Source: a virus
Virus record (IMG/VR): IMGVR_UViG_3300027788_001769
Location: 62,001 to 126,000 of that record
Strand: one strand, 5' to 3'
Length of the DNA stretch: 64,000 nucleotides
A program made the translations under genes and the position numbers. Shown piece by piece: positions 32,067 through 45,156 of the stretch; position 1 is the stretch's first letter, and every line of letters begins with the position of its first letter. A model generated the notes under the pieces. The model was not told the origin of the DNA. It searched no databases and saw nothing but the letters and a program-made list of their open reading frames with translations.

Positions 32067-34042
32067 TGGCTGAAAAGAAGAAAAAAAGAAACCTAATACA
32101 GGACACTAAAGACGCAAAAAAGAAAGGATTGTCTAAATTACAGAACTTCGGTAATGTAATAAAGGCAAAAAAAGACTTAGCTAAAGAAAATGCGTTAAAA
32201 AATGTAATGGGTTCTATAGATTCTATAAATGAAAAATCAAATAATTTAATAGAATATTTCTTAGACCTAATTAAGGTGGGTGGTGGTAATGAAAGTATTA
32301 CCAGGATACGTAAAAATCTAGTTAAAAAGTTAGGTAAATACGAACCAGAGGTAAAAGAAATTGTATTTGAGGAGATGGTCCAGTTTCTAAACTGTGATTT
32401 AAATTTTGTTATACCTTCAGCTAACGGTACCAACAATGGAAATTGTGTCTCTAGTGGTGGTGTTTCCACACCAGATTCTAATTTATTAAAAATACCAGTT
32501 AAAAGTATAGACCCGTTTGGTCTATTAAAAAACAGTCCACTATCCAACGTGGGTAAAGCTACTTACGAAAAGCAAGATATAATTAGTGGGTCGTTCCCAT
32601 TTTCAACAAATAAAGAATTATATGGGAGATTAGAGAATCCTAGTACCCAACAAGATTATTTTGGGTTTAGTGGTAGTAGACTTTTCACTATGGAATTTGA
32701 TGGACTTGATTCTTATTTAATTAGGCCTGTCGGAGTTGACAATACTTTTTCTGATAACAATATTTCGGATTTTAGTTGTGGTGGGGCTGAGAATGATAGG
32801 AAGGTAACAGATTTTTTGAGGGATTATTTTGATTCGGTTAAACTTTTTGAAAAACATAACTTTTTAGCTCAGATTTTTGAAGTTCTAATGGGGTCATTAA
32901 GTGTCCAGATTGATAGGAGTGGTACTGAAGTGGAATTAGATGGTAAGTTCGCTGAAATTATAAAACGTATTTTAGGTATGTGTGGAGATGATGAAGATGG
33001 TTCTGATGGTGGTGAAATAAGTACCTCTGCAACTGCTCACTTAACAGATACCTATGAAGGAGAAGAAGAAGATTTTTTTGCTTTTGGACCACAGGACTTA
33101 CTAAACTTAGAAGATGAAACAAGTTTGAAGGTTAAGGGGTTGTTGAGGTTTGCTAGTTGTGATAACATAGAAACTGGAATAAATATTGACCAATTAAATG
33201 AGGACATAAATGGAATTTTGTCCGAAAATAATGAAGGGATAATAGACATGAACCTAAACCAATCAATAGATAAAGCTGTTGAGAGTATGGGTAACGACGA
33301 CTTATCATTTAATTTACCAAATATAAAAGCGGATTTTGACGCTAACATCCTTAAGGAGTTACCTAAAATTTTATTAAACCTTATTTTAACACCTAAAGTT
33401 CTTCTACCAATAGCAATCGCTATGAAATCACAAGGTAATAGTTTTGATAACGATGACATTATGGATTTGGTTAAAAAATTCTTTAGATTAATTAAAAAAA
33501 TAGTAAGGAGATTATTTAAACTTATGATTGAAATACTTTTTGACGAAATAAAAAGAATAATATTGAAATTAATAGCTGAGATTATGAAAGAAATAATCAA
33601 AGAAAAATATTTAAAACAATTTGCTATAATACAAAATTTACTTAATTTATTAATGTTAGCTCTATCATTAATAGAAGATTTAGCCAATTGTAAATCTATA
33701 TTAAATAGTTTATTACAACTATTAAGGTTGCCGCCTCCTCCTGGTGGAATAAACATACCTAAACCACTTTTATTTGCAACTGCTAGTAGGCCAGGGTTTA
33801 GTGATACAAGAGCATTTCAAAACGTATTAGAAAATTTACAAGAGACAGGTTTTAATACTGCGGACCATGCTGACGGTTCACCAAACGCATCTGTTGTTAT
33901 GTTATATAACACCATAAAAGGTGTAGAAAAAGAAAGAAGTGAAAATAGTGTAGTAAAAATTGTAACCTACCCACAAAATGTTAAAAGCCCACAAGGGCCT
34001 GGAGTTACTGAAAGTGGAACAGGAACAGGACTAATAATTTAA
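32066..34042 (+). CDS. Large virion protein, probably baseplate
   Basis: A 658-residue protein with a basic helical N-terminus (AEKKKKRNLIQDTKDAKKKG), an acidic middle, and a remarkable very hydrophobic, helix-rich stretch (about residues 455-560) full of Ile, Leu and Lys, followed by PPPPGGIN and a polar C-terminus. The layout and position between the coiled-coil gene and an OB-fold protein suggest a baseplate or tail protein. No family is recognised. The hydrophobic stretch could be an amphipathic helical bundle or membrane-active region. Confidence 0.6.
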   Translation: MAEKKKKRNLIQDTKDAKKKGLSKLQNFGNVIKAKKDLAKENALKNVMGSIDSINEKSNNLIEYFLDLIKVGGGNESITRIRKNLVKKLGKYEPEVKEIVFEEMVQFLNCDLNFVIPSANGTNNGNCVSSGGVSTPDSNLLKIPVKSIDPFGLLKNSPLSNVGKATYEKQDIISGSFPFSTNKELYGRLENPSTQQDYFGFSGSRLFTMEFDGLDSYLIRPVGVDNTFSDNNISDFSCGGAENDRKVTDFLRDYFDSVKLFEKHNFLAQIFEVLMGSLSVQIDRSGTEVELDGKFAEIIKRILGMCGDDEDGSDGGEISTSATAHLTDTYEGEEEDFFAFGPQDLLNLEDETSLKVKGLLRFASCDNIETGINIDQLNEDINGILSENNEGIIDMNLNQSIDKAVESMGNDDLSFNLPNIKADFDANILKELPKILLNLILTPKVLLPIAIAMKSQGNSFDNDDIMDLVKKFFRLIKKIVRRLFKLMIEILFDEIKRIILKLIAEIMKEIIKEKYLKQFAIIQNLLNLLMLALSLIEDLANCKSILNSLLQLLRLPPPPGGINIPKPLLFATASRPGFSDTRAFQNVLENLQETGFNTADHADGSPNASVVMLYNTIKGVEKERSENSVVKIVTYPQNVKSPQGPGVTESGTGTGLII

Positions 34043-34045
34043 ATT

Positions 34046-34252
34046 ATGAATATAGAAAAAATAAAAAGTGTTTTAGAGAATTATAGTAAAGTATCTAATA
34101 AAGAGTTATCCGACGTAATGGTTTTTTTAAAGGGTAGGTTTGACGAGTCTAAAAATACCGTAATACAATTAACACATCAAATGGACGAGTTAGAAAGAGA
34201 TTATAATAGGTTAAATTCTGAACTTAAAAAAAGAGTAAGTACTAATGGCTAA
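34046..34252 (+). CDS. Small coiled-coil protein
   Basis: A 68-residue helical protein. About residues 30-62 have a heptad-like pattern (VIQLTHQMDELERDYNRL). It is sandwiched between two large baseplate-type genes, with an 8-base overlap downstream. It may be a small assembly partner of its neighbours; function unknown. Confidence 0.55.
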   Translation: MNIEKIKSVLENYSKVSNKELSDVMVFLKGRFDESKNTVIQLTHQMDELERDYNRLNSELKKRVSTNG

Positions 34253-35915
34253 AAATATTAAAATGATATTATTTGGGGTTTGTATAAACAGTGACGACCC
34301 TTTATTGGCCGCTAGAATTAGAGCTGTTACAGACGACAATTATTCTGGTAACAATCCTAAAGATTACGATATTGCTACATGTCAAAAAATAAGTCAAGGG
34401 AATAAAGATTTATACCCTAGGACAGAGGACGTATATTGGAGTAAGGATGACCCACATATTTGTGCTCCCTTACTTCCTTACTATATTAATGTTATTCCAG
34501 AGTCTAACGAAAATGTTAAAATATTCTTATATAGTTCAGAAAATGACAGTCAAAATAAAGAGTACTTAGGACCCACAATATCACAACCACACAAATTAAG
34601 TGGGGAAGCTTATGCTGATGGTAGACTTCATACGTCCAAAGGAACCAGAGTAGAAGCTGCTAGGGCAATAACCGACTCTTCAGTTTCGGAAGGTAGTTTT
34701 TCTTATCCAGGTTCTGTTAGTTTAGATGGTAGACATAATTCTGATGTTGTCTTGGGTAATAGACAAGTAGTCTTACGTTCCGGAAAATTTACACACAATA
34801 ACCAAAAACCAGAATTTCCAATATACAATGTAAAACAAAGTTTAATTCAGGTAGATAGTTTTGAGAAGGGATTAAATTTGATTCCAACAGAGGATAAAAA
34901 ATTAGAAGTTCAAGAAAGTAATGTAAATTATGTGGTAGAGTATGATATTTTAGATTTAGCTCCAGCAGATGGATTTTTTAATGGGAGTGTAACTTTATTT
35001 AAAGTAGAGTCATTACCAGACAAAGAAAAAATAACAACTAAAAATATGGGGTTAACGACACCTATTTTAACAGTTGCTACTCTTAAAGAAAGAGCTAGAG
35101 TTAGTTTTTTTAATCAAAGCTTTTCCGGTGTAACTACTTTGGTTAATTCATTTTTAGAGGAAGTGGACAATAGAAACGGTAAAAAACTAACTGACCCTAT
35201 AGGCATTAGTGGGTATGAGGGTTATTTAGGTACTGGTACTTTTATAAAGTCAGGAGAATATATAGATATCGGTTCTGCAGCACCCAATAACGAAGAAATA
35301 CTAGCTTTACACCCATTTTTCTTTAGACCTAGTAGTACACTAAGAAGACAATTAAATTCCAATGATACTTTAATACCTAACAGTCAAACCGCATCTAACG
35401 CTACTAAAGTAAAAGAAAAAATACGGTTAATTGGTGTTAATGGAAATCAGTACTGGGGACTTTCCTGGTCCAGAAACGAAAAGAATGTACCGACCAAAGA
35501 AATTACTAGAAAGTACGATAAAGAAAGTACTGAAACTAAAACACAAGGTGTTATTACCTTGTTAACAGATAAAATTGTTTTATATTCACACGATACCAGA
35601 ATCCCCAATGCCCCAAAAACCATTCCTTTAGTGGATAACACCAACATCCCATCAGCTAGAGAAAATTTAGGTATAGACCAAAAAACTTTAGTTACCTTGA
35701 TTGAAAAGGAAACTGAACCCCTGGTTAGAGGAGACCAATTAAAAAAAGCTTTGGAACGTATAGTGGATTTTTTAAAGTATCATGAACATAAAGAACCTGG
35801 TACCCCTACAGTGGATAAAACACAACACGGAGGAAAAGAAACTTGGGAATCTTTAGAGACAATGCTAAAAGAATTCGATAAAACTGTATTAAATAAAAAT
35901 ATAAGAATCAACTAG
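34245..35915 (+). CDS. Baseplate protein with gp5-like OB fold
   Basis: A 556-residue virion protein. The first 120 residues, INSDDPLLAARIRAV, then YWSKDDPHICAPLLPYYIN and VKIFLYSSENDSQNKEYLGP, follow the N-terminal OB-fold pattern of phage hub proteins such as T4 gp5 and gpV (DPLxxGRVRV, then ...P-L-x-P...). A lysozyme domain like that of gp5 is not evident. The middle is beta-rich and the last 100 residues are helical and charged (EPLVRGDQLKKALERIVDFL). I infer a hub or spike baseplate component. It is followed by a TATTTATT element and the next virion gene. Confidence 0.6.
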   Translation: MAKNIKMILFGVCINSDDPLLAARIRAVTDDNYSGNNPKDYDIATCQKISQGNKDLYPRTEDVYWSKDDPHICAPLLPYYINVIPESNENVKIFLYSSENDSQNKEYLGPTISQPHKLSGEAYADGRLHTSKGTRVEAARAITDSSVSEGSFSYPGSVSLDGRHNSDVVLGNRQVVLRSGKFTHNNQKPEFPIYNVKQSLIQVDSFEKGLNLIPTEDKKLEVQESNVNYVVEYDILDLAPADGFFNGSVTLFKVESLPDKEKITTKNMGLTTPILTVATLKERARVSFFNQSFSGVTTLVNSFLEEVDNRNGKKLTDPIGISGYEGYLGTGTFIKSGEYIDIGSAAPNNEEILALHPFFFRPSSTLRRQLNSNDTLIPNSQTASNATKVKEKIRLIGVNGNQYWGLSWSRNEKNVPTKEITRKYDKESTETKTQGVITLLTDKIVLYSHDTRIPNAPKTIPLVDNTNIPSARENLGIDQKTLVTLIEKETEPLVRGDQLKKALERIVDFLKYHEHKEPGTPTVDKTQHGGKETWESLETMLKEFDKTVLNKNIRIN

Positions 35916-35916
35916 A

Positions 35917-35924
35917 TATTTATT
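35917..35924 (+). promoter_or_regulatory. Candidate late-gene element TATTTATT
   Basis: CTAGATATTTATTAATAAAA ends 11 nt before the ATG at 35936. The same 20-base string precedes the minus-strand gene at 46218, which strengthens the case that it is a functional element rather than chance. Confidence 0.5.
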
Positions 35925-35935
35925 AATAAAAACTA

Positions 35936-37486
35936 ATGTCAGTACACAAATCATATTTTAAAAAAAACAATACTTTATTGTCTTATGACAGGACTAATAC
36001 CGCTAAAAACCCAGTAACTGAGGTGTATTATGGTGGTGGGTCATCTAGAAGGGATTGTAAATTTACAGGAATACCTACAGATATTTGTGTAAATCCGGAA
36101 GGAGTAGCCTTAACTGGTTACACATCTATTCGAATAAATAACGACTATAGTAGATTTATTTTTGATTTAGATATTACTGATTTAGAAAGTAAAATATCCG
36201 ATAAGACAATAATAACTGGTTCACATGGTTGTAATAATGCATCAGCTAAACACACATTAAGAATGGTTAACACTTCTTTCTTCGATGATGAGTTACTAAA
36301 CACTGTTACATCTAAGAATAAAAGAAGAGCTAGTTCATTTGATTTGGTTTTATTTAAAATACCGACTGGTACTACATGGAGTGAGGGTGTTGGTTATGAC
36401 TACACTAATATGTCAAGTGATTTTGTTGGTTTAGATGACAATTCTTTTTCTACTGTTCCCAGTAACTGGTACTCCGCTACCACTACTTCTTCGTGGCCAT
36501 GTTTGGGAATATATAATTACACAACTTGTGTCCCAGAAATTATAGCAACTCAGACTTTTGATAATGGTAATGAGAACATAGCATTTGACCTTACAAGTGA
36601 AATGAATGAGGTGTTGTCTGGTAGTAAAAATATGAGTGGGTATGGTGTTGCTTTTGTGGAACAATTAGAAAGGTTGACTGGTTTAACAGAAAGTTACTCC
36701 GTAGGTTTCTTCACTAAGTACACACAGACATTTTTTGAACCTTATCTTGAAACTAATTATGATGATTATATTTTAGATGATAGAGATTTTTTCTATGAAG
36801 GAAAAAGTAACTGTCTTTATTTATATGTGAATAAAGGTGGTGTACCAACAAATTTAGATAACTTTCCTACCGCACAAATCTACGATAACTCTGGTACGGT
36901 TTTATATACTATCACAGCATCCCAGGTAACGAAAGGTGTTTACTGTGCATGTTTTACCATAGCGTGTGACGAATATGTTGCTCCTTGTATGTTTAAAGAT
37001 AGGTGGTCTAATTTATCTATTAATGGAAATTGTCAATCTGACGTAACCAATAAAGTCACATTAAAATCTAACTCTGATTATTTTAATATAGGTACTAACG
37101 CTGGATTACCAAAACATTATGGGTATTCTATATCTGGAATTAAAATGGACGAAAAAATCGTAAATGGGGACATTAGAAAAGTTATAGTTTCTGCTAGACA
37201 ACAATATACCACTAATTTTCCAGTAGCTTTAGATTTAATACAGTATAGGATATACGTTAAACAAGGTACTACACAAGTAGAAACTCAAGAATGGACAAAA
37301 GTAAATATAGCTCACAACCAAAATTACTTTGTTGTTGACACAGGTGATATGGTACCCAATGAGTACTTTATAGATATTCAAGCCATATCTAATCTAGAAA
37401 AAAACACTTACTTTGAGACGGTAAAATTCCAAGTTGTAAATCAAGCTAACTATTTTGGCAATCCACCATCTGACTATAGACAATAA
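35936..37486 (+). CDS. Virion structural protein (tail or baseplate)
   Basis: A 516-residue beta-rich protein with scattered cysteines (RRDCKF, ICVNPEG, CACFTIACDEYVAPC). It begins MSVHKSYFKKNNTLLSYDRTN. A central phrase FFTKYTQTFFEPYLETNYDDY looks like the surface-strand region of phage adhesin or collar proteins. No catalytic motif. Position after the OB-fold protein and its own late element suggest a structural, possibly appendage role. The identity is not certain. Confidence 0.6.
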   Translation: MSVHKSYFKKNNTLLSYDRTNTAKNPVTEVYYGGGSSRRDCKFTGIPTDICVNPEGVALTGYTSIRINNDYSRFIFDLDITDLESKISDKTIITGSHGCNNASAKHTLRMVNTSFFDDELLNTVTSKNKRRASSFDLVLFKIPTGTTWSEGVGYDYTNMSSDFVGLDDNSFSTVPSNWYSATTTSSWPCLGIYNYTTCVPEIIATQTFDNGNENIAFDLTSEMNEVLSGSKNMSGYGVAFVEQLERLTGLTESYSVGFFTKYTQTFFEPYLETNYDDYILDDRDFFYEGKSNCLYLYVNKGGVPTNLDNFPTAQIYDNSGTVLYTITASQVTKGVYCACFTIACDEYVAPCMFKDRWSNLSINGNCQSDVTNKVTLKSNSDYFNIGTNAGLPKHYGYSISGIKMDEKIVNGDIRKVIVSARQQYTTNFPVALDLIQYRIYVKQGTTQVETQEWTKVNIAHNQNYFVVDTGDMVPNEYFIDIQAISNLEKNTYFETVKFQVVNQANYFGNPPSDYRQ

Positions 37487-37522
37487 TTTCACAATTATTT
37501 AACAATAACATAACATACTTTT

Positions 37523-37540
37523 AAGTAACATAAGTTACTT
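37523..37540. repeat. Inverted repeat AAGTAAC-ATAA-GTTACTT
   Basis: Seven-base arms AAGTAAC and GTTACTT separated by ATAA, just before the microprotein start at 37547. It could be an operator or a weak hairpin in the leader. A related sequence (ATAAGTTACT) also occurs in the 21007-21082 gap. Confidence 0.5.
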
Positions 37541-37546
37541 ATTAGT

Positions 37547-37630
37547 ATGGATACACTACAACCAAAAATAGACGTTAGCCCAATTATATACGTTATATTA
37601 ATGATTGCCGTATTCTGTCTTTCTATTTAG
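37547..37630 (+). CDS. 27-residue membrane microprotein (candidate)
   Basis: A small open frame ATG-TAG encodes 27 residues: a polar head (MDTLQPKIDVSP) followed by a hydrophobic stretch IIYVILMIAVFCLSI ending at the stop, enough for one membrane helix. It has no Shine-Dalgarno, but neither do most genes here. It lies in the otherwise gene-free 37487-37790 gap, between an inverted repeat (37523-37540) and the hairpins at 37637-37692. Coding status is unproven; a short frame can arise by chance. Confidence 0.4.
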   Translation: MDTLQPKIDVSPIIYVILMIAVFCLSI

Positions 37631-37636
37631 GGTGAC

Positions 37637-37692
37637 CCGATTAATCTTATTAATCGGTTCAAACCACACTCACTCCCTATGTTTGAACAACC
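37637..37692 (+). ncRNA. Structured intergenic segment (two overlapping hairpins)
   Basis: Hairpin A: CCGATTAAT / ATTAATCGG (37637-37645 with 37649-37657), 9-bp perfect stem, 3-nt loop. Hairpin B: GGTTCAAAC (37656-37664) with GTTTGAAC-a-ACC (37681-37692), a long stem with one bulge and a 16-nt loop. The two stems share GG at 37656-37657, so they compete at that step. No T-run follows, so it is not a simple terminator. A regulatory leader, small RNA or binding site is possible. Confidence 0.45.
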
Positions 37693-37755
37693 TAGTATTT
37701 CTCGGTAGTGTTCATTTAATTACTCTTTTTTTATGTAAAAAAAACCTAATTTAAC

Positions 37756-37786
37756 TTGGTGGAACCAATATATTTTATTATCTTTG
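37756..37786 (+). promoter_or_regulatory. Bacteroidota-type promoter (TTG-N20-TAnnTTTG)
   Basis: TTG at 37756-37758, a 20-bp spacer, then TATCTTTG at 37779-37786, a full match to the Bacteroidota -33/-7 consensus. Start of transcription would fall about 37790, so the mRNA would begin at or within a base or two of the ATG at 37791. It likely drives the operon 37791-40468. Confidence 0.75.
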
Positions 37787-37790
37787 TAGT

Positions 37791-38261
37791 ATGAAAAAAT
37801 TACCTATAAAAATACAACGAATAATAAAGAAAAAAACATTCAAATTAAATACTCTGGCAGGTAATCGTTCTTGGAGGGGTGGTTTAAAAATTGATTACCG
37901 TATAACAATGGTTAAAGCGGATGGTGAACACCAGGATTTTTGTACACCACTTACCAATAGCTATGCTCCTGTTACGGTAAATATAAAGGTTAAGGGTCAG
38001 GTAGAGACTAGAGGTGATATAGGTGTATATTCAAAAATACTAAGGGAAATTTCTGAAGTTACAAAAACAAAAATAAGTTACTGGGGTGGTTATGATACAA
38101 AATACGATTATGTTTGGGGTCGCCAAGTAAACAAAGCAGTTCGTAAAGAGATTCGTTATAGAGCAATTAATGATGTGGTAAACTTTCTAAAGTTAGTGGG
38201 CATACAAACTGAAAGATGGTCTGATGGGATTTCAATAGGTACCATAACATGGGAAAAATAA
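37791..38261 (+). CDS. Hypothetical protein from a leaderless-type start
   Basis: A 156-residue basic protein, probably the first gene of a host-promoter operon. It begins MKKLPIKIQRIIKKKTFK and has alternating strands (YRITMVKADGEHQDF, VTVNIKVKGQVETRGD) and a helical segment near the C-terminus. No known domain. Its promoter and translation start nearly coincide, so it may be translated from a leaderless message. Early expression is inferred from the host-type promoter. Function unknown. Confidence 0.65.
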   Translation: MKKLPIKIQRIIKKKTFKLNTLAGNRSWRGGLKIDYRITMVKADGEHQDFCTPLTNSYAPVTVNIKVKGQVETRGDIGVYSKILREISEVTKTKISYWGGYDTKYDYVWGRQVNKAVRKEIRYRAINDVVNFLKLVGIQTERWSDGISIGTITWEK

Positions 38262-38314
38262 ATAAATAAGATAAAAGAGAAAAGACCTACTCACTAATTA
38301 TAGGCGTTAAAGAG

Positions 38315-38842
38315 ATGGATAGATTAGATACGACAACAAGATTATTTATAGGATATTTAATATTCTTATCCCTTATATTGGGGTGTAGTGTGGTAAATGG
38401 ACAAGACACAACCGCCAGTGTTCACCAGCAAACACATAACTTAACCACCAACATGTTTGGTGTTGAGTTTGGGGCACCAATTATGGGTCGAGGTGTGGTC
38501 AATCCAAATGTCACAATACCACAAAGAATATCATCAGAATACCACATTGTTCATTATCTATCTGTAGGTTATTCATTTTTAGAGGAAAAAAAAGATGAGT
38601 ACCTATTTTCATACGGTATTGGAATACCATTAAAAGTATTGGATAAAGGAACTTTTTATGGGTATTTTATCGACGCTTATCACTACAGACCTGATTTAAT
38701 TGTTGTAGACCCCACTAAAAATAGAGACTTTAGACAAAGAAGAATTAGGATTGCGTATAGAACAAACAAGTTAGAGTTCTCAACAACTTACACATTGAGG
38801 TATTCGGTAATCTTAGGCATTTCATATTCATTTAACAAATAA
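38315..38842 (+). CDS. Secreted or lipoprotein with beta-barrel-like repeats
   Basis: A 175-residue protein with an N-terminal export signal: hydrophobic residues 10-23 (LFIGYLIFLSLILG), then C24 at a lipobox-like LILGC; cleavage at NGQ (30) is the alternative. The rest is amphipathic strands with aromatic girdles (YLFSYGIGIP, GTFYGYFIDAYHY, FSTTYTLRYSVILGISYSFNK), ending in an aromatic strand as outer-membrane beta barrels do. I infer an outer-membrane or periplasmic protein, possibly altering the infected cell surface. No family is recognised. It lies in the host-promoter operon. Confidence 0.6.
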   Translation: MDRLDTTTRLFIGYLIFLSLILGCSVVNGQDTTASVHQQTHNLTTNMFGVEFGAPIMGRGVVNPNVTIPQRISSEYHIVHYLSVGYSFLEEKKDEYLFSYGIGIPLKVLDKGTFYGYFIDAYHYRPDLIVVDPTKNRDFRQRRIRIAYRTNKLEFSTTYTLRYSVILGISYSFNK

Positions 38843-38847
38843 TAGTC

Positions 38848-39003
38848 ATGGGAGAGATAGACCAAATGTTAAAACAATGGATGCCAGTAAACACTGTTAT
38901 TAGGAAACAACTAAGAGAGTTAATCGTTAAAGAGATAGAAAAAGAAAGGACCAAAGAAAGGGTAAAAATATTAACCTGGGAACACCAATTAAAAAATAAA
39001 TAA
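38848..39003 (+). CDS. 51-residue charged helical protein
   Basis: An open frame of 51 codons between the secreted protein and the ligase, with 5- and 4-base gaps. The product (MGEIDQMLKQWMPV, then Lys/Glu-rich helix ELIVKEIEKERTKE) looks like one charged helix. Tight packing supports it as a real gene. Function unknown; it may be a partner of the neighbouring ligase. Confidence 0.6.
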   Translation: MGEIDQMLKQWMPVNTVIRKQLRELIVKEIEKERTKERVKILTWEHQLKNK

Positions 39004-39007
39004 TAAG

Positions 39008-40306
39008 ATGAATGATTTAAAAAGAATACGAGAATTTGTAAGTAGATTAAAATCCACTAACGCAACTAATAATAAGATTGATATTATTAAAGAGTATAAG
39101 GAAGACCAGGTTATTAAGGAGGTGTTAAAGTATACTTACTCACCATTCAAACAATATCACGTCACTAGTAAAAACTGTAAAAAGAATTCAGATTTAATAA
39201 AATACGGATACACCAACTTATTTTGTTTGTTACGTGACCTAAACAGTAGATTACTTACCGGACATGAAGCAATAAGCTATGTTAATGGTTATGTGGAAGC
39301 TAATAAGAAATATGAAGACCTTATCTATTGTGTGGTAGATAAAAACTTAAAGACAAGAACAGGAGCAGACCTAATAAACAAAGCAATACCTAAATGCGTA
39401 CCAACTTTTAAAGTAGCGTTAGCTAACTCTTATGATAAACAAAAGGGTAAAGTTAATTTTGACACACAAACATGGTTTGCCTCACATAAGTTAGATGGGG
39501 TTAGATGTTTAGCTATAGTAGACGACAACGGAGTGTGTAATTTCTTCTCAAGACAAGGTAAGACATTCGATACTTTAGATGTACTTAAAAATGAAATAGA
39601 GAGTCTAAACTTATGTAATATGGTATTTGATGGTGAAGTGTGTGTGGTTGATGAGAATGGAACAGAGGACTTCCAAGGTATCATGAAGGAAATTAAAAGA
39701 AAGGACCATACCATTGAAAATCCTAAATACAAAATATTTGATTACCTTATGTTGTCAGAGTTCGATACCCAAGTAAGTAAACGTAGTCTGAGTGATAGAT
39801 TAGGTAAGTTTAATATGGTATATAATACGTTCAACGAACAATTAAACTGTATTGACCTATTGGAACAATGGAAGGTAGAGTCCGAAGAGCATTTCCAAGA
39901 GTTAGCAGAACTGGCAACAAAGAATAACTGGGAAGGTTTAATCTTACGTAAAGATTGTGAGTATAAAGGTAAAAGAAGTAATGACCTTCTTAAGGTTAAA
40001 AAATTCTTTGACGAAGAGTATGTTGTAAAGTCTATAGAAACTTCTACACATAGAATTATTGTAGACGGATTAGAAGTTGAAGAAGAGATGTTAAGTAATG
40101 TTGTAATAGAACACAAAGGTTGTGATGTTGGTGTTGGTTCTGGTTTCGACCAATCAGAAAGAAGAAAATATTTCAAGAACCCAGAACTTATAATTGGTAA
40201 AACAATTACAGTACAATACTTTGAAGAGACACTTAACCAGGATGGTTGTCACTCATTAAGATTTCCAGTAGTAAAACATGTATATGAAAATGGAAGAAAT
40301 GTTTAA
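39008..40306 (+). CDS. ATP-dependent DNA ligase
   Basis: A 432-residue nucleotidyltransferase-type ligase that seals nicks. Motif I is SHKLDGVR (adenylated Lys K161), then FSRQGKTF, the motif III region FDGEVCVVDENG, motif IV EGLILRKDCEYKG, and motif V LLKVKKFFDEEYVVK. The C-terminal OB-fold is present. It has a 160-residue N-terminal region ahead of the catalytic core, as in T4-like ligases. It is in the operon with a host-type promoter and needs no NAD. RNA ligase is less likely from these motifs. Confidence 0.9.
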   Translation: MNDLKRIREFVSRLKSTNATNNKIDIIKEYKEDQVIKEVLKYTYSPFKQYHVTSKNCKKNSDLIKYGYTNLFCLLRDLNSRLLTGHEAISYVNGYVEANKKYEDLIYCVVDKNLKTRTGADLINKAIPKCVPTFKVALANSYDKQKGKVNFDTQTWFASHKLDGVRCLAIVDDNGVCNFFSRQGKTFDTLDVLKNEIESLNLCNMVFDGEVCVVDENGTEDFQGIMKEIKRKDHTIENPKYKIFDYLMLSEFDTQVSKRSLSDRLGKFNMVYNTFNEQLNCIDLLEQWKVESEEHFQELAELATKNNWEGLILRKDCEYKGKRSNDLLKVKKFFDEEYVVKSIETSTHRIIVDGLEVEEEMLSNVVIEHKGCDVGVGSGFDQSERRKYFKNPELIIGKTITVQYFEETLNQDGCHSLRFPVVKHVYENGRNV

Positions 40307-40321
40307 TAAAAAAATAAAAAT

Positions 40322-40468
40322 ATGAAAAAATTAACTAGTATAGATATAGTTTTAAGATTTGCGTTAGTGTTATTCACATTTATGTTGGTTATGTCCTTTA
40401 CTGGATGTGCCACAAGTGGAAGGACATATAATGTAGGTACCGGTGAATTACTACCTAAAACTAAATAA
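40322..40468 (+). CDS. Small lipoprotein
   Basis: A 48-codon gene with a type II signal peptide: basic start, hydrophobic FALVLFTFMLVMSF and the lipobox FTGC (C29), leaving a 20-residue mature tail ATSGRTYNVGTGELLPKTK. Such tiny lipoproteins include outer-membrane lysis proteins (o-spanins) and surface-exclusion proteins; neither role is shown. It is the last gene before the terminator at 40477-40505. Confidence 0.7.
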   Translation: MKKLTSIDIVLRFALVLFTFMLVMSFTGCATSGRTYNVGTGELLPKTK

Positions 40469-40476
40469 TAGCATAA

Positions 40477-40505
40477 AAAAAGAGGACGAATATCGTCCTC
40501 TTTTT
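40477..40505 (+). terminator. Bidirectional rho-independent terminator
   Basis: Stem AAAAAGAGGACGA / TCGTCCTCTTTTT (13 bp, loop ATA), with poly-A on the left and poly-T on the right, so it can end transcription from both sides. It separates the plus-strand operon from the convergent major capsid gene, whose stop is at 40527. Confidence 0.93.
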
Positions 40506-40526
40506 ATTAGTAATATACTTAACTTA

Positions 40527-42389
40527 TTATCTAAGTTCTTTGATATCGAAAGTTCTAACTCCATCAAGTTGGATAAATCCGTAGAATCTATTGTTAACCA
40601 TTTTCTTAGCGTATCTAGTCATGATACCTTTGATTGGTGCAAAGTTGAACGGGTTATACATTGTTGGTGTTAATTGTAATGGAACGTAAGGTGCGTATAC
40701 GTAACCAGTATCAAGTAAAGAAGTTCCTTTGTGTCCTACCAAACATCCGTTTGCTGGGAAGTAAGGGTCTCTATATACTGTATATCTACCACCTAAAGTA
40801 CCGATTTTTTCAATACCCATGTTATATTGGTCTTGGTCTGGAGAAGCGTTAGACACGTGGAAGTATTCTAAATCATCAAAGATTGCAGAAACTTCAGAAG
40901 AACAAACAATCCAGTTAGCCCCACCTCTCAACGTAGATTTGTGAATCTGTGCTGATAATTGGTTAATAGCTGTAATTAATGTTTGGTTCCAGTCTTTTTG
41001 AGTGTAAGGAGCTTGACCAGCTGCGAATCTCTTCCAACCGTTGTAGTCCCATCTCAATCTCCATGCTGCACCTTTTCTAAGGTCTAATAAAATTTCCCTG
41101 TCGATTTCAGCAGCAACTTCTTCAGAAAGTAAAGCTGTTAATTCAGCTTCAGCATCAATGTTGTGGAATGCAGAAACGTCTTGTGCTAATTCCGGTGACC
41201 ACTGAGCTCTTAATTTTCTTTCAGTAACAGAAACCGTTACAGAATCTAAATCAAAAGAAACTTCAGCAAGTTCCGTAGAGAATTCTAAATCTTCATATTG
41301 TCTCCATACTCCTGTAAATGTACCTGTGTTAGCGTTAAAAGCGTTACTACCAGCAACGATATCACTACCCATAAACCATCCACCCATGTAACCATCTGGT
41401 GAATCACAAGAAATACATGCTGGACATGAAGTATCTAATTCGATGTAAATTTCACCTGCAGTATCACAAAGATTATCGAACTTACCACCTGGAAGTGCGT
41501 TAGTTGTTTGAGTTCCGTAGTCTACAATACCTTTACCATATTTTTGAGTTACAACTCTAAATGGTATGTGAGTTTTGTTAGCTTCAACAGTTTTTGTAGT
41601 TGCCGTATTTGAACAACAGAAAATGTCGTCATTAGCAACAAAATAAAGTGAACCTAAGAATTCCTCAGTATCCATTTCATTACCACTTGGTCCAGATAAT
41701 TTACCAGCTCCTAATCCCCAGAAACCTCCAAGTTTAATGATAAGTCCTCTTACACCACCTTGGTTGTTAGAACCACAATTAGTGTTACCAGATACACCAG
41801 CACCGTTTTCTCCAAGTACCTCAACTAGTTCACCGTTATTGTTAGTGTTCCATGCTACAGATTTAGCAACACTTGTTACACCTGTATAAGCTCCTTTAGA
41901 CCTGTCCCATAGACCTTGTCCGTCTGCATAATATTGGTCATATAAGTCAACACTATCAAATTGAGTGTTTGAGTTACCAAATGCTCCACCTTGTGGATTA
42001 TAATGTCCTTCACCAGCTGCTAATGGTTCGTTACCTACTACACCAGCTCTTCTAGATGAAATTTTAGGTACAAAGTAGAACAATTTACCAATTGGTAAGT
42101 TCATAGCTTGTACAGAAACGATATCGTTTGCCAATAATTTAGAGAATACTCTCCTTACGATTGGAAATACTACAGTTTCAAAAGAACCTGACGCATCTGC
42201 CGATGTTGCTTCGTTTATTAAATGTGTTGCTTGATTTTCGTATAATTGAGCGATGTTCTCTCTAGTGTGACCTTTAAGTCCTTCTAGAAATCCTAACTTG
42301 TCCCATTTACCGATGGTATCTTCACGGATAACTTTAAGGTGTTTTAACCCAATGTTTCCGACCATACCTGATTCTAATAATGCTCCCAT
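40527..42389 (-). CDS. 23: Major capsid protein (T4 gp23-like)
   Basis: A 620-residue protein with the N-terminal pattern of gp23 family capsids: GKWDKLGFLEGLKGHTRENIAQLYENQA, then VVFPIVRRVFSKLLANDIV and PIGKLFYFVPKIS. The first 60 residues are a helical propeptide ending in HLINE|ATS, an I-x-E site of the type cut by the T4 gp21 protease, so the mature protein should start at residue 61. It is about 100 residues longer than T4 gp23. The last gene of the minus-strand module, following the scaffold by 34 bases, and it ends at the bidirectional terminator. Confidence 0.93.
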   Translation of the reverse strand: MGALLESGMVGNIGLKHLKVIREDTIGKWDKLGFLEGLKGHTRENIAQLYENQATHLINEATSADASGSFETVVFPIVRRVFSKLLANDIVSVQAMNLPIGKLFYFVPKISSRRAGVVGNEPLAAGEGHYNPQGGAFGNSNTQFDSVDLYDQYYADGQGLWDRSKGAYTGVTSVAKSVAWNTNNNGELVEVLGENGAGVSGNTNCGSNNQGGVRGLIIKLGGFWGLGAGKLSGPSGNEMDTEEFLGSLYFVANDDIFCCSNTATTKTVEANKTHIPFRVVTQKYGKGIVDYGTQTTNALPGGKFDNLCDTAGEIYIELDTSCPACISCDSPDGYMGGWFMGSDIVAGSNAFNANTGTFTGVWRQYEDLEFSTELAEVSFDLDSVTVSVTERKLRAQWSPELAQDVSAFHNIDAEAELTALLSEEVAAEIDREILLDLRKGAAWRLRWDYNGWKRFAAGQAPYTQKDWNQTLITAINQLSAQIHKSTLRGGANWIVCSSEVSAIFDDLEYFHVSNASPDQDQYNMGIEKIGTLGGRYTVYRDPYFPANGCLVGHKGTSLLDTGYVYAPYVPLQLTPTMYNPFNFAPIKGIMTRYAKKMVNNRFYGFIQLDGVRTFDIKELR

Positions 42390-42423
42390 AATTTGTTATT
42401 TTTTTTTTTGGTTGTTTATTTTA

Positions 42424-43773
42424 TTATAATTTAGCCATTATATCTTTCATTCTCGCAATTTGTGGATTAACATACGTTTTCGATTCAATCAAATTCGTAG
42501 AAGACCCCTTCTTTGGAGATTTAGAAATGGTTTTTTGAATTGATTCAGTAATAGACTTAGTCTTAACTGACAATTCACTGTTTAGCTGTTTGTAAAGACC
42601 TTTACTTTCATTTAAAGTCTCAACATTATCAAAACGTCTTAAAACATTAATTTTTTCTTGTTTTGACGTTGTATGTTCAGTAAATAATTTTGTAGAGTAA
42701 GCTAGATTAGCGTTAAACACAGCTACCTCATTAATTTTATCTCTAAACATCGTCAAAGCTTTTTTATAATCTTTGTTTTTGTTTTTATAATTTTGATTTT
42801 CATTTTTCAAAGACTCAAGAACTAATTCTTGTTTTTTTAATCTTTTATTTAAAGTTGCTACAGACTCTCTAAGGTTTCTATTATTAGTGACTGGTTTGTA
42901 TGATTGTCCCTTTGGTGCGTAACCATTAGAACCTCTTCTACCAAAACCTAAAGTACGAGATGCTTCTTTATAGTCTTTACGACTTCTAGATTCATCTCCT
43001 TTATTACCACCATATTTAGCTCTCTCAGAATAATCTCTTTTACTCCTGGATTCGTCTCCTTTGTTACCCCCGTATTTAGCTCTCTCAGAATAATCTCTTT
43101 TACTTCGAGATTCGTCTCCTTTGTTGCCTCCATACTTTGCTGTTTCAGAGTAATCTTTTTTACTTTTAGATTCGTCTCCTTTGTTTCCACCATAAGGTTG
43201 GTCTTCATCCATCTCAATTTCATAGATTGTTTCGTCGTCCATTTCTTCCATTTCCATGTCGTCCATTTCCATAACATCTATATCGTCATCCATAGTTTCC
43301 CCCATCTCCTCATCAGTTTCGTTCATTTCAACTCTGTATTCGGTACCCGCTTCTTGGTCTTCAATATTAATAGTGTTGTCATCTTGTGTGACAATAACAC
43401 CATCATCTGAACCCATAGCTTTGAATACTTTCATTACTTCGTCGTCTGATGCACCCGTTAAATCAAGAGTGTCTTCAAAGTCATCCATCATACCGATAGA
43501 TACCATTTCATCTTCTGAATCAGGTTCCCCAACTTCATCATCCATATCCAACATATCTTCTACGTCTTCCATGTCTAAATCTTCTAAGTCGTCAACCTCT
43601 TCTTCATCGTTTATTTCTAAATCTTCTACGTCTTCTTGTAGTGATTCTTTTACTAACTCCTCAATTTCTTGTTTCATAGTTGAAGCAAGTATTTCTTTTG
43701 CATTAGATTTAACAGCTTCTTCTAGCTGTTTAGCCTCTAGGAGGGCTTGTTCAAGAACTGAATTTTTTGCCAT
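42424..43773 (-). CDS. 22: Prohead scaffolding protein (T4 gp22-like)
   Basis: A 449-residue protein lying between the prohead protease and major capsid genes, exactly where T4 has gene 22. The N-terminal 200 residues are extremely acidic (runs of Asp, Glu and Met), then come four 20-residue repeats (see 42961-43200), then a basic, helical C-terminal 150 residues with coiled-coil character. Scaffold proteins of this type are cut to peptides by the gp21 protease; several L/I-x-E sites are present. Assignment rests on position and composition more than on similarity. Confidence 0.75.
   Translation of the reverse strand: MAKNSVLEQALLEAKQLEEAVKSNAKEILASTMKQEIEELVKESLQEDVEDLEINDEEEVDDLEDLDMEDVEDMLDMDDEVGEPDSEDEMVSIGMMDDFEDTLDLTGASDDEVMKVFKAMGSDDGVIVTQDDNTINIEDQEAGTEYRVEMNETDEEMGETMDDDIDVMEMDDMEMEEMDDETIYEIEMDEDQPYGGNKGDESKSKKDYSETAKYGGNKGDESRSKRDYSERAKYGGNKGDESRSKRDYSERAKYGGNKGDESRSRKDYKEASRTLGFGRRGSNGYAPKGQSYKPVTNNRNLRESVATLNKRLKKQELVLESLKNENQNYKNKNKDYKKALTMFRDKINEVAVFNANLAYSTKLFTEHTTSKQEKINVLRRFDNVETLNESKGLYKQLNSELSVKTKSITESIQKTISKSPKKGSSTNLIESKTYVNPQIARMKDIMAKL
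42961..43200 (-). repeat. Four tandem 60-bp coding repeats in the scaffold gene
   Basis: Four consecutive 60-bp units encode YGGNKGDESRSKRDYSERAK-type repeats (20 residues each). The amino-acid pattern (YGGNKGDES, then SKRDYSE) is nearly constant while third-codon bases differ between units, so selection on the protein rather than recent copying explains their upkeep. Confidence 0.9.
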
Positions 43774-44718: not shown

Positions 44719-45156
44719 TTATTTTGTTTTTGTAAAATGAAATTCTGAACTATCTTTAAATATATCAGTAAGTAAATTACTAGTGATATTTGTTACGTTC
44801 CCCATGACCTCCACTGACTTGATACTGTATGGTTGGGTTAGGAATAAAGTTACCTCACAATTCATATAACTTTTTTTACCTGTTTTAATTCCACTAGTCC
44901 TAATGTCTAAATCTATTATATTTTTATTTTTAGTAAAAACTTCTGGATTTATGGATTTGGTTGCAGAAGACACTATTTTTCTTTTTAAAGACCTAACCTT
45001 CCTATCCCAAAAAGAAATGTCGTCATCTTCAATTAATGGTGAAAACCAAGAAGATATATTTATGAACACCGACTTAGGGTTCTTAGTGTCAACACTACCA
45101 TAGTAGGTTTTAAAGTTTGAGTCTATATTGAATTTTACTTGTTTTCCGGCTTTCAT
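44719..45156 (-). CDS. Hypothetical protein of the head module
   Basis: A 145-residue protein with mixed strands (VKFNIDSNFKTYYGSVDT, then CEVTLFLTQPYSIKSVEV). No domain is recognised. It lies between the holin-like gene and the protease, in the position where T4 has small prohead core genes, but composition does not match an acidic core protein. The leader TATAAAATATTTAAAT is AT-rich; its promoter is uncertain. Confidence 0.5.
   Translation of the reverse strand: MKAGKQVKFNIDSNFKTYYGSVDTKNPKSVFINISSWFSPLIEDDDISFWDRKVRSLKRKIVSSATKSINPEVFTKNKNIIDLDIRTSGIKTGKKSYMNCEVTLFLTQPYSIKSVEVMGNVTNITSNLLTDIFKDSSEFHFTKTK

Follow-up and report, generated by a model that had tools for sequence, protein, structure and literature searches.

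The probable promoter site and its surroundings

The window analyzed here is a 64,000-nt stretch of viral DNA (positions 62001-126000 of a 136,768-nt IMG/VR virus record), and the features discussed below are listed in Table 1. The virus encodes a gp23-type major capsid protein (PF07068 Gp23, E 4.4e-72; phrog_138, E 1.1e-66), as expected of a T4-like myovirus. In the window, searches for tRNAs and, at the gathering score, for Rfam families were negative.

An earlier note had described TTG-N20-TATCTTTG at 37756-37786, ending 4 nt before the ATG at 37791, as a perfect Bacteroidota promoter from which the message might begin at or beside the start codon. The letters and coordinates proved exact. 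The word "perfect" is justified for the −7 box, which agrees with the TAnnTTTG (TAHHTTTG) form of sigma-ABfr promoters, and for the short TTG element, but not for the classical −33 TTTG, as the site reads TTGG. A TTG at about 17-23 nt is accepted as the −33 element of sigma-ABfr promoters, and TTG-N20 agrees with this TTG-distance form, the full TTTG being absent in the window. TATCTTTG occurs as a single copy in the 64 kb when both strands are counted.

The 156-aa protein P0001 showed no Pfam or PHROGs match and no PDB fold match at E <= 0.001, and its AlphaFold model, built from 4 sequences, has a mean pLDDT of 66.5. A search of 50,697 phage records yielded no convincing relative of P0001, the one weak match having an E of 0.6. 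The DNA ligase gene, which is preceded by a 165-nt gap, may share the P0001 transcript.

A folded stretch with a T run separates the preceding gene from the promoter. The fold z-score was −3.03 for 37625-37745 and −0.48 (not significant) for the counterpart in the homologous locus L318, and the terminator scan listed none at 37637..37732; the stretch might, on this weak evidence, be the end of the upstream transcript. Right behind the upstream 516-aa gene lies a 27-codon frame, MDTLQPKIDVSPIIYVILMIAVFCLSI (37547-37630, plus strand), with a hydrophobic end. A similar frame occupies the matching position in L002, and the frame is possibly a real small membrane protein.

In a screen of all k-mers, the best-scoring word was TATTTATA, found 4-19 nt ahead of the start in 7 of the 70 window genes (0.55 expected). 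It corresponds to the T4 late box in reverse complement and may be a promoter element of a different class.

Table 1. Features at the promoter site, elsewhere in the window and elsewhere in the same virus record. Coordinates are those of the window, except in the last two rows, which use those of the record.
Feature	Position	Strand	Remark
Folded stretch with T run (37726-37732)	37637..37732	+	between preceding gene and promoter
−33 element TTG (TTGG at −35 to −32 from ATG)	37756..37758	+	exact in sequence
AT-rich spacer, 20 nt	37759..37778	+	
−7 element TATCTTTG	37779..37786	+	invariant in 4/4 family members
Discriminator TAGT (consensus TAnT)	37787..37790	+	
Predicted transcription start (A of ATG)	37791..37791	+	from F. 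johnsoniae 4-5 nt spacing and the 4-nt peak
P0001, 156-aa protein, function unassigned	37791..38261	+	156-codon frame; predicted leaderless gene
175-aa ORF	38315..38842	+	possibly same transcription unit as P0001, from position only; no family match
ATP-dependent DNA ligase	39008..40306	+	PHROG 114 E 1.6e-83; PF01068 E 3.5e-19
Gene starts preceded by TATTTATA	1217, 2307, 31701 (+); 44586, 50096, 55039, 56146 (−)		
Second leaderless cassette (predicted), TATATTTGTAATATG (L246)	135369-135383	−	outside the window; precedes 272-aa M42/M28-type peptidase
Two divergent leadered host-type promoters (L314, L315)	44843 (−), 44917 (+); span 44843-44924		upstream of a 145-aa frame (22 nt) and a 78-aa frame (47 nt)

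Conservation of the box and its distance from the ATG

A protein search of IMG/VR retrieved three homologues of P0001, in L318, L319 and L320 (59%, 44% and 36% identity, respectively); all were reached by protein, and the L320 contig also turned up in the motif scan. In all four family members, including the window, exactly 4 nt lie between TATCTTTG and the homologous ATG. Pairwise identity was complete in the box (48/48) and high in the next four bases (21/24), compared with 14/18 (78%) at the TTG positions and 68/108 (63%) in the spacer (−32 to −15), a pattern that bears out the promoter assignment of the earlier note. The −35 to −32 positions of the four members read TTGG, TTTG, TTTG and TTGG. 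The TTG spacing is N20 in two members and N19 in the other two, so that N20 in all homologues is wrong. The proteins begin with MKKLPI, MKKLPI, MKKIPI and MKRLPL, and the first codons show third-position changes (CCT/CCA, ATA/ATT/ATC and AAG/AAA). Because protein similarity sets in at the very first codon while third positions have changed, translation very likely begins at 37791.

The spacing between the box and the ATG was then counted in two collections of genes. Set A consisted of the protein-seeded phage loci L003-L150 with 1494 mechanically called genes. Set B, with 726 genes, consisted of motif-seeded viral loci with the seed sites removed; it was built from 80 of 89 IMG/VR motif stretches and was therefore chosen for carrying the cassette. 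The sets have some contigs in common (e.g., L072/L172 and L073/L163), and related contigs are not independent. The gene start was taken as the first ATG of a frame of at least 60 codons (at least 40 in the start-codon count).

TAHHTTTG was found exactly 4 nt before the ATG in 24 of the 1494 set-A genes. Distances of 0-3 nt gave 1, 1, 1 and 2 genes, distances of 5-9 nt gave 1, 1, 0, 0 and 0, and the far background was 0.63 per position, while three scrambled motifs at 4 nt gave 0, 0 and 1. Thirteen of the 24 sites belong to one gene family. In set B, the box was at 4 nt in 20 of 726 genes. The 45 distinct phage sites fall into 28 protein families, and when they were aligned by the ATG, the −33 element emerged (T at −35 in 40 sites and at −34 in 39), as did the discriminator (T at −4 in 36, A at −3 in 29 and T at −1 in 37). 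The start codon at 4 nt was ATG, GTG or TTG in 17, 1 and 1 cases in set A and in 24, 4 and 0 cases in set B; in a host sample, comprising 800 kb of one flavobacterial genome, the corresponding numbers were 5, 0 and 3, leaving an ATG preference unclear there.

Motif scans of larger collections were carried out with reversed motifs as controls. Exact IMG/VR scans with the TAGT discriminator returned 89 stretches with 4-nt spacing and 9 with 5-nt spacing; 80 of the 89 contained 81 sites, of which 68 open a frame of at least 50 codons or one running off the locus. In 14 virus records (2.48 Mb), TATMTTTGTANTATG was present 37 times and its reversed control once, and TATMTTTGTANTATA 13 times against 0, these 13 being counted as sequence matches. 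Three of these records had been chosen by motif (L208, L187 and L175), one is the window's own, and ten were reached by protein; the last ten hold 17 of the 37 TATMTTTGTANTATG matches in 1.67 Mb, with zero reversed matches. The looser pattern TAHHTTTG-N4-ATG gave only 77 matches against 42 reversed in 13 of these records, which counts against the cassette. TATMTTTGTANTATG was also found 17 times in 11 Bacteroidota-titled genomes (~30.5 Mb), each of which had been chosen for holding one site. As far as can be judged from sequence, a group of large uncultured phages uses the cassette TTkG-N~20-TATmTTTG-TAnT-ATG for different genes.

The motif without its position is another matter. In the window, the two-box pattern with up to 2 mismatches gave 37 matches against 42.75 expected from shuffles, and because there was no excess, mismatch-tolerant two-box scans were not used as evidence; neither were sigma-70-type sites, with 32 against 36.5 expected in 34000-42600. 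In the whole 136,768-nt record, the numbers of matches and reversed matches were 5 and 2 for TTG-N20-TAHHTTTG, 2 and 3 for TAHHTTTG-N4-ATG, and 6 and 13 for TATCTTTG. A first-order Markov simulation of upstream regions, on the other hand, predicted only 0.033 boxes at exactly 4 nt for the 70 genes of the window, or 0.0007 if TTG is included. The pattern by itself is thus not above chance, but its position is, and we judge the site to be real because it is conserved in the family and the 4-nt peak recurs phage-wide.

Individual families differ in how strictly the box is kept at 4 nt. In the 98-aa family, the homologues of which were reached by protein, it was present at this distance in 10 of 12. 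The SprT-like family (6/6), a lipoprotein-like family without a Pfam match (16/17), the M42/M28-type peptidase family (5/8) and the CAP-domain family (only 4/12) consist mostly of members fetched by motif, so these ratios are biased towards the box; the three misses among the peptidases are without a recognizable start where they were read and may be paralogues or misaligned. Several CAP members have the box followed by TAGTATAA or TACTATAA, with the start 21-32 nt past the box, which points to leaderless and leadered forms of one promoter kind. The 98-aa family, the lipoprotein family and the upstream 516-aa protein showed no relative among phage records at E 1e-5 in a protein search.

Predicted placement of the transcription start

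The G of the −7 box occupies −5 in F. johnsoniae, where 4 or 5 nt separate the box from the start in many promoters (PMC6847099). When this spacing is applied to the window, +1 is expected at 37791 or 37792. We favor 37791 because the distance is locked and A is favored at +1. The latter preference is seen in leadered promoters, which we defined as TTG plus box outside called genes with the next start 9-250 nt away, and of which we collected 56 distinct phage sites, some of them surely chance matches. Among the 56, position −4 is T in 49, −3 is A in 37 and −1 is T in 27; at +1, +2 and +3, the bases A, T and A occur in 34, 24 and 30 sites, respectively. Hence A is favored at the predicted start even outside a start codon, and leadered phage promoters tend to read TAnT followed by ATA where the leaderless ones read TAnT followed by ATG.

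These results uphold the suggestion that the message lacks a leader, which draws on the locked 4-nt distance, the prevalence of ATG over GTG and TTG in the phage sets and A at +1 of leadered promoters. The segment 37756-37790 very likely represents a promoter of the host (sigma-ABfr) type, and the gene at 37791 is very likely leaderless. Taken together, we consider it highly probable that 37756-37790 serves the primary Bacteroidota sigma factor (sigma-ABfr type) as a promoter with its predicted start at the first coding base, yielding a leaderless message. The sequence, its conservation, the locked distance, the enrichment and the similar initiator are computed results on which this reading draws.

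One could envision three alternatives. The first is that the promoter is real but that transcription leaves a leader of 1-3 nt, or starts within the AUG, and that the protein is translated from a leadered read-through message. A start 5 nt past the box, also common in F. johnsoniae, would place +1 on the U of AUG, and this counts against the leaderless reading, since either 4 or 5 nt is the reported spacing (PMC6847099). Moreover, a same-strand operon precedes the gene, and the A found here at −3 is favorable for leadered translation, too, in F. johnsoniae (PMC6847099). However, selection for a distance of exactly 4 nt and for ATG would then be unexpected, and A is the commonest +1 base in leadered promoters too. 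We regard this first alternative as improbable.

The second is that the promoter is real and the true protein start lies further downstream, the first codons being an untranslated leader. Hosts do prefer leaders, with a median of 24 nt in one study (PMC9723704) and 32 nt in another (PMC7366714). Against this, the protein similarity with its third-position changes begins at the first codon, and the phage peak is tied to ATGs that begin frames of at least 40 codons and have a stop codon shortly upstream, so that we give a downstream start little credence. Finally, AT-rich DNA might match a short consensus by chance, in keeping with two-box matches that equal shuffles and with a bare box that is unenriched in the window's record; this is very improbable in view of the conservation in 4/4 family members, the excess over the reversed control in whole virus records (37 to 1) and the accumulation of 24 genes at one distance over a background of 0.63.

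The leaderless reading must also be weighed against the transcriptomes of hosts, in which such messages are a minority: leaderless messages make up 5.5% in F. psychrophilum (PMC9723704); 5′ UTRs below 10 nt account for about 3.7% in B. thetaiotaomicron (PMC7366714); and in F. johnsoniae 13% are at most 10 nt, as derived from the 87% above 10 nt (PMC6847099). Their rarity in hosts counts against a leaderless message. We compared recognizable promoters in phages with those in the host sample, and, since the latter is a part of a single flavobacterial genome and set B was cassette-selected, the size of the difference is rough. Among promoters with TTG plus box within 60 nt of the start, 15 of 35 in set A and 15 of 39 in set B were leaderless, against 1 of 28 in the host (Fisher 3.3e-4 and 9.9e-4); within 250 nt, the fractions were 15/39, 15/56 and 1/32 (3.8e-4 and 7.9e-3). 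When only the box was required, again within 60 nt, they were 24/75, 20/69 and 6/120. Counted by protein family, there were 20 leaderless and 30 leadered cases in phages and 1 and 27 in the host (3.8e-4). The host sample does have the box at 4 nt in 4 of 363 genes, with none at 0-3 or 5-12 nt. Host-type promoters are thus leaderless more often in these phages than in one flavobacterial genome.

Relation to known systems and a proposed mechanism

The site resembles sigma-ABfr promoters (−33 TTTG, −7 TAnnTTTG) in its −7 box, its AT-rich spacer, the TTG about 20 nt upstream and the 4 nt separating box and presumed start (PMC6847099, PMC7366714). In F. johnsoniae the −33 element is weak (PMC6847099). 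The site differs from the sampled host promoters: of the 28 that have a start within 60 nt, 27 lie at distances other than 4 nt. Position −4 also differs: among 30 leadered host promoters, 15 have C there and 14 have T, but T is found in 49 of 56 phage leadered ones. A second likeness is to the TA-led leaderless genes of bacteria, which have a −10-type box about 12 nt upstream of the start codon, making the first base of the transcript that of the coding sequence as well, just as the box here begins 12 nt before the ATG; that survey sought a Pribnow-type box, whereas the box here is of the Bacteroidota type and lies in phages, and it names Bacteroidetes among the clades with many "atypical" genes (PMC3160421). 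Late promoters of phiKZ likewise have a motif, TATG, that overlaps the start site, but they are used by a phage-encoded polymerase that starts at the G of TATG, and we claim no membership in that class (PMC4666361).

Both this promoter type and leaderless phage mRNAs are already known. Lambda cI mRNA is leaderless, and the message predicted here would likewise be a phage message starting at AUG. Familiar examples of leaderless phage mRNAs are single genes, unlike the one cassette in 20 (TTG plus box) to 28 (box) gene families described here. Phage transcripts are often leaderless (PMC5312081), and work on the lambda repressor mRNA is cited for 70S binding of leaderless mRNA (PMC4611024). In the open-access literature searched, we found no report of one promoter-AUG cassette reused across 20-28 gene families of uncultured phages, nor of leaderless promoters in Bacteroidota phages.

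Initiation in Bacteroidota does not involve Shine-Dalgarno pairing. We propose that the host RNA polymerase would bind TTG and TATCTTTG and start at 37791, so that the message would have a 5′-AUG and be leader-free. A ribosome, thought to be the 70S form in E. coli, would then bind the 5′-terminal AUG together with initiator tRNA; this route is described as requiring the AUG itself and a 5′ phosphate, with a 70S start suggested (PMC4611024). The proposal presupposes that Bacteroidota ribosomes would translate leaderless messages efficiently. A host-type promoter would point to early or middle expression, and read-through from upstream could yield a leadered message of the same 156-aa gene. The polymerase, the start site, the translation route and the early timing are the parts of this scheme that we infer. 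A broader hypothesis, which we advance only tentatively and which is rather doubtful, is that large uncultured Bacteroidota phages possess a leaderless regulon, in which a portable promoter-initiator-AUG cassette, with the +3 base (ATG or ATA) deciding between leaderless and leadered forms, would mark a gene set translated by 5′-AUG recognition, perhaps at stages of infection in which the normal route of initiation is limited.

If a third or more of the recognizable host-type promoters are leaderless, these genes would be natural test messages for initiation by Bacteroidota ribosomes. The cassette would also offer a compact expression cassette for Bacteroidota and a signature by which phages of this kind, along with some of the genes they carry, could be recognized in metagenomes, and it fixes gene starts.

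The earlier note took the promoter as independent support for a Bacteroidota host. The whole composite motif was found in 31 bacterial and archaeal stretches, 24 of them titled Bacteroidota, in support of that view. The capsid is less decisive, its relatives being, in order of rank, a Microcystis phage, an uncultured phage and then Flavobacterium phages. The virus probably infects Bacteroidota, and the promoter is better evidence for such a host than the capsid. Two of the stretches, L271 from a Nitrososphaeraceae bin and L272 from a Bacteroidia bin, have an identical promoter and protein start; the archaeal-bin stretch is probably a mis-binned contig.

The notion that all Bacteroidota phages carry the cassette was rejected. 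In Flavobacterium phage immuto (MW353175, 1-150000 of 160 kb; L309-L311), the box was at 4 nt in 0 of 205 genes. Its host is Flavobacterium, yet there is no excess of TAHHTTTG before its starts, and its transcription may follow other signals. In phi38:1 and Calle_1, two of the 86 phage records with peptidase relatives, the start region differs, the peptidase homologues having a TTG start and lacking the box; the single TAHHTTTG-N4-ATG match in 50 kb of phi38:1 is off any listed frame. A small number of searches yielded no cultured phage with the cassette. The lack of it in these cultured phages weighs against the leaderless reading, as do the concentration of 13 set-A sites in one family, the low count in the CAP family and the unclear ATG preference in the host sample.

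In two of the set-A loci, L003 and L071, a second TAHHTTTG box (TATCTTTGTGG and TAACTTTGTAG, respectively) is located 31 nt upstream of the leaderless ATG, where it overlaps the −33 element. One possible interpretation is that these loci carry tandem promoters 27 nt apart.
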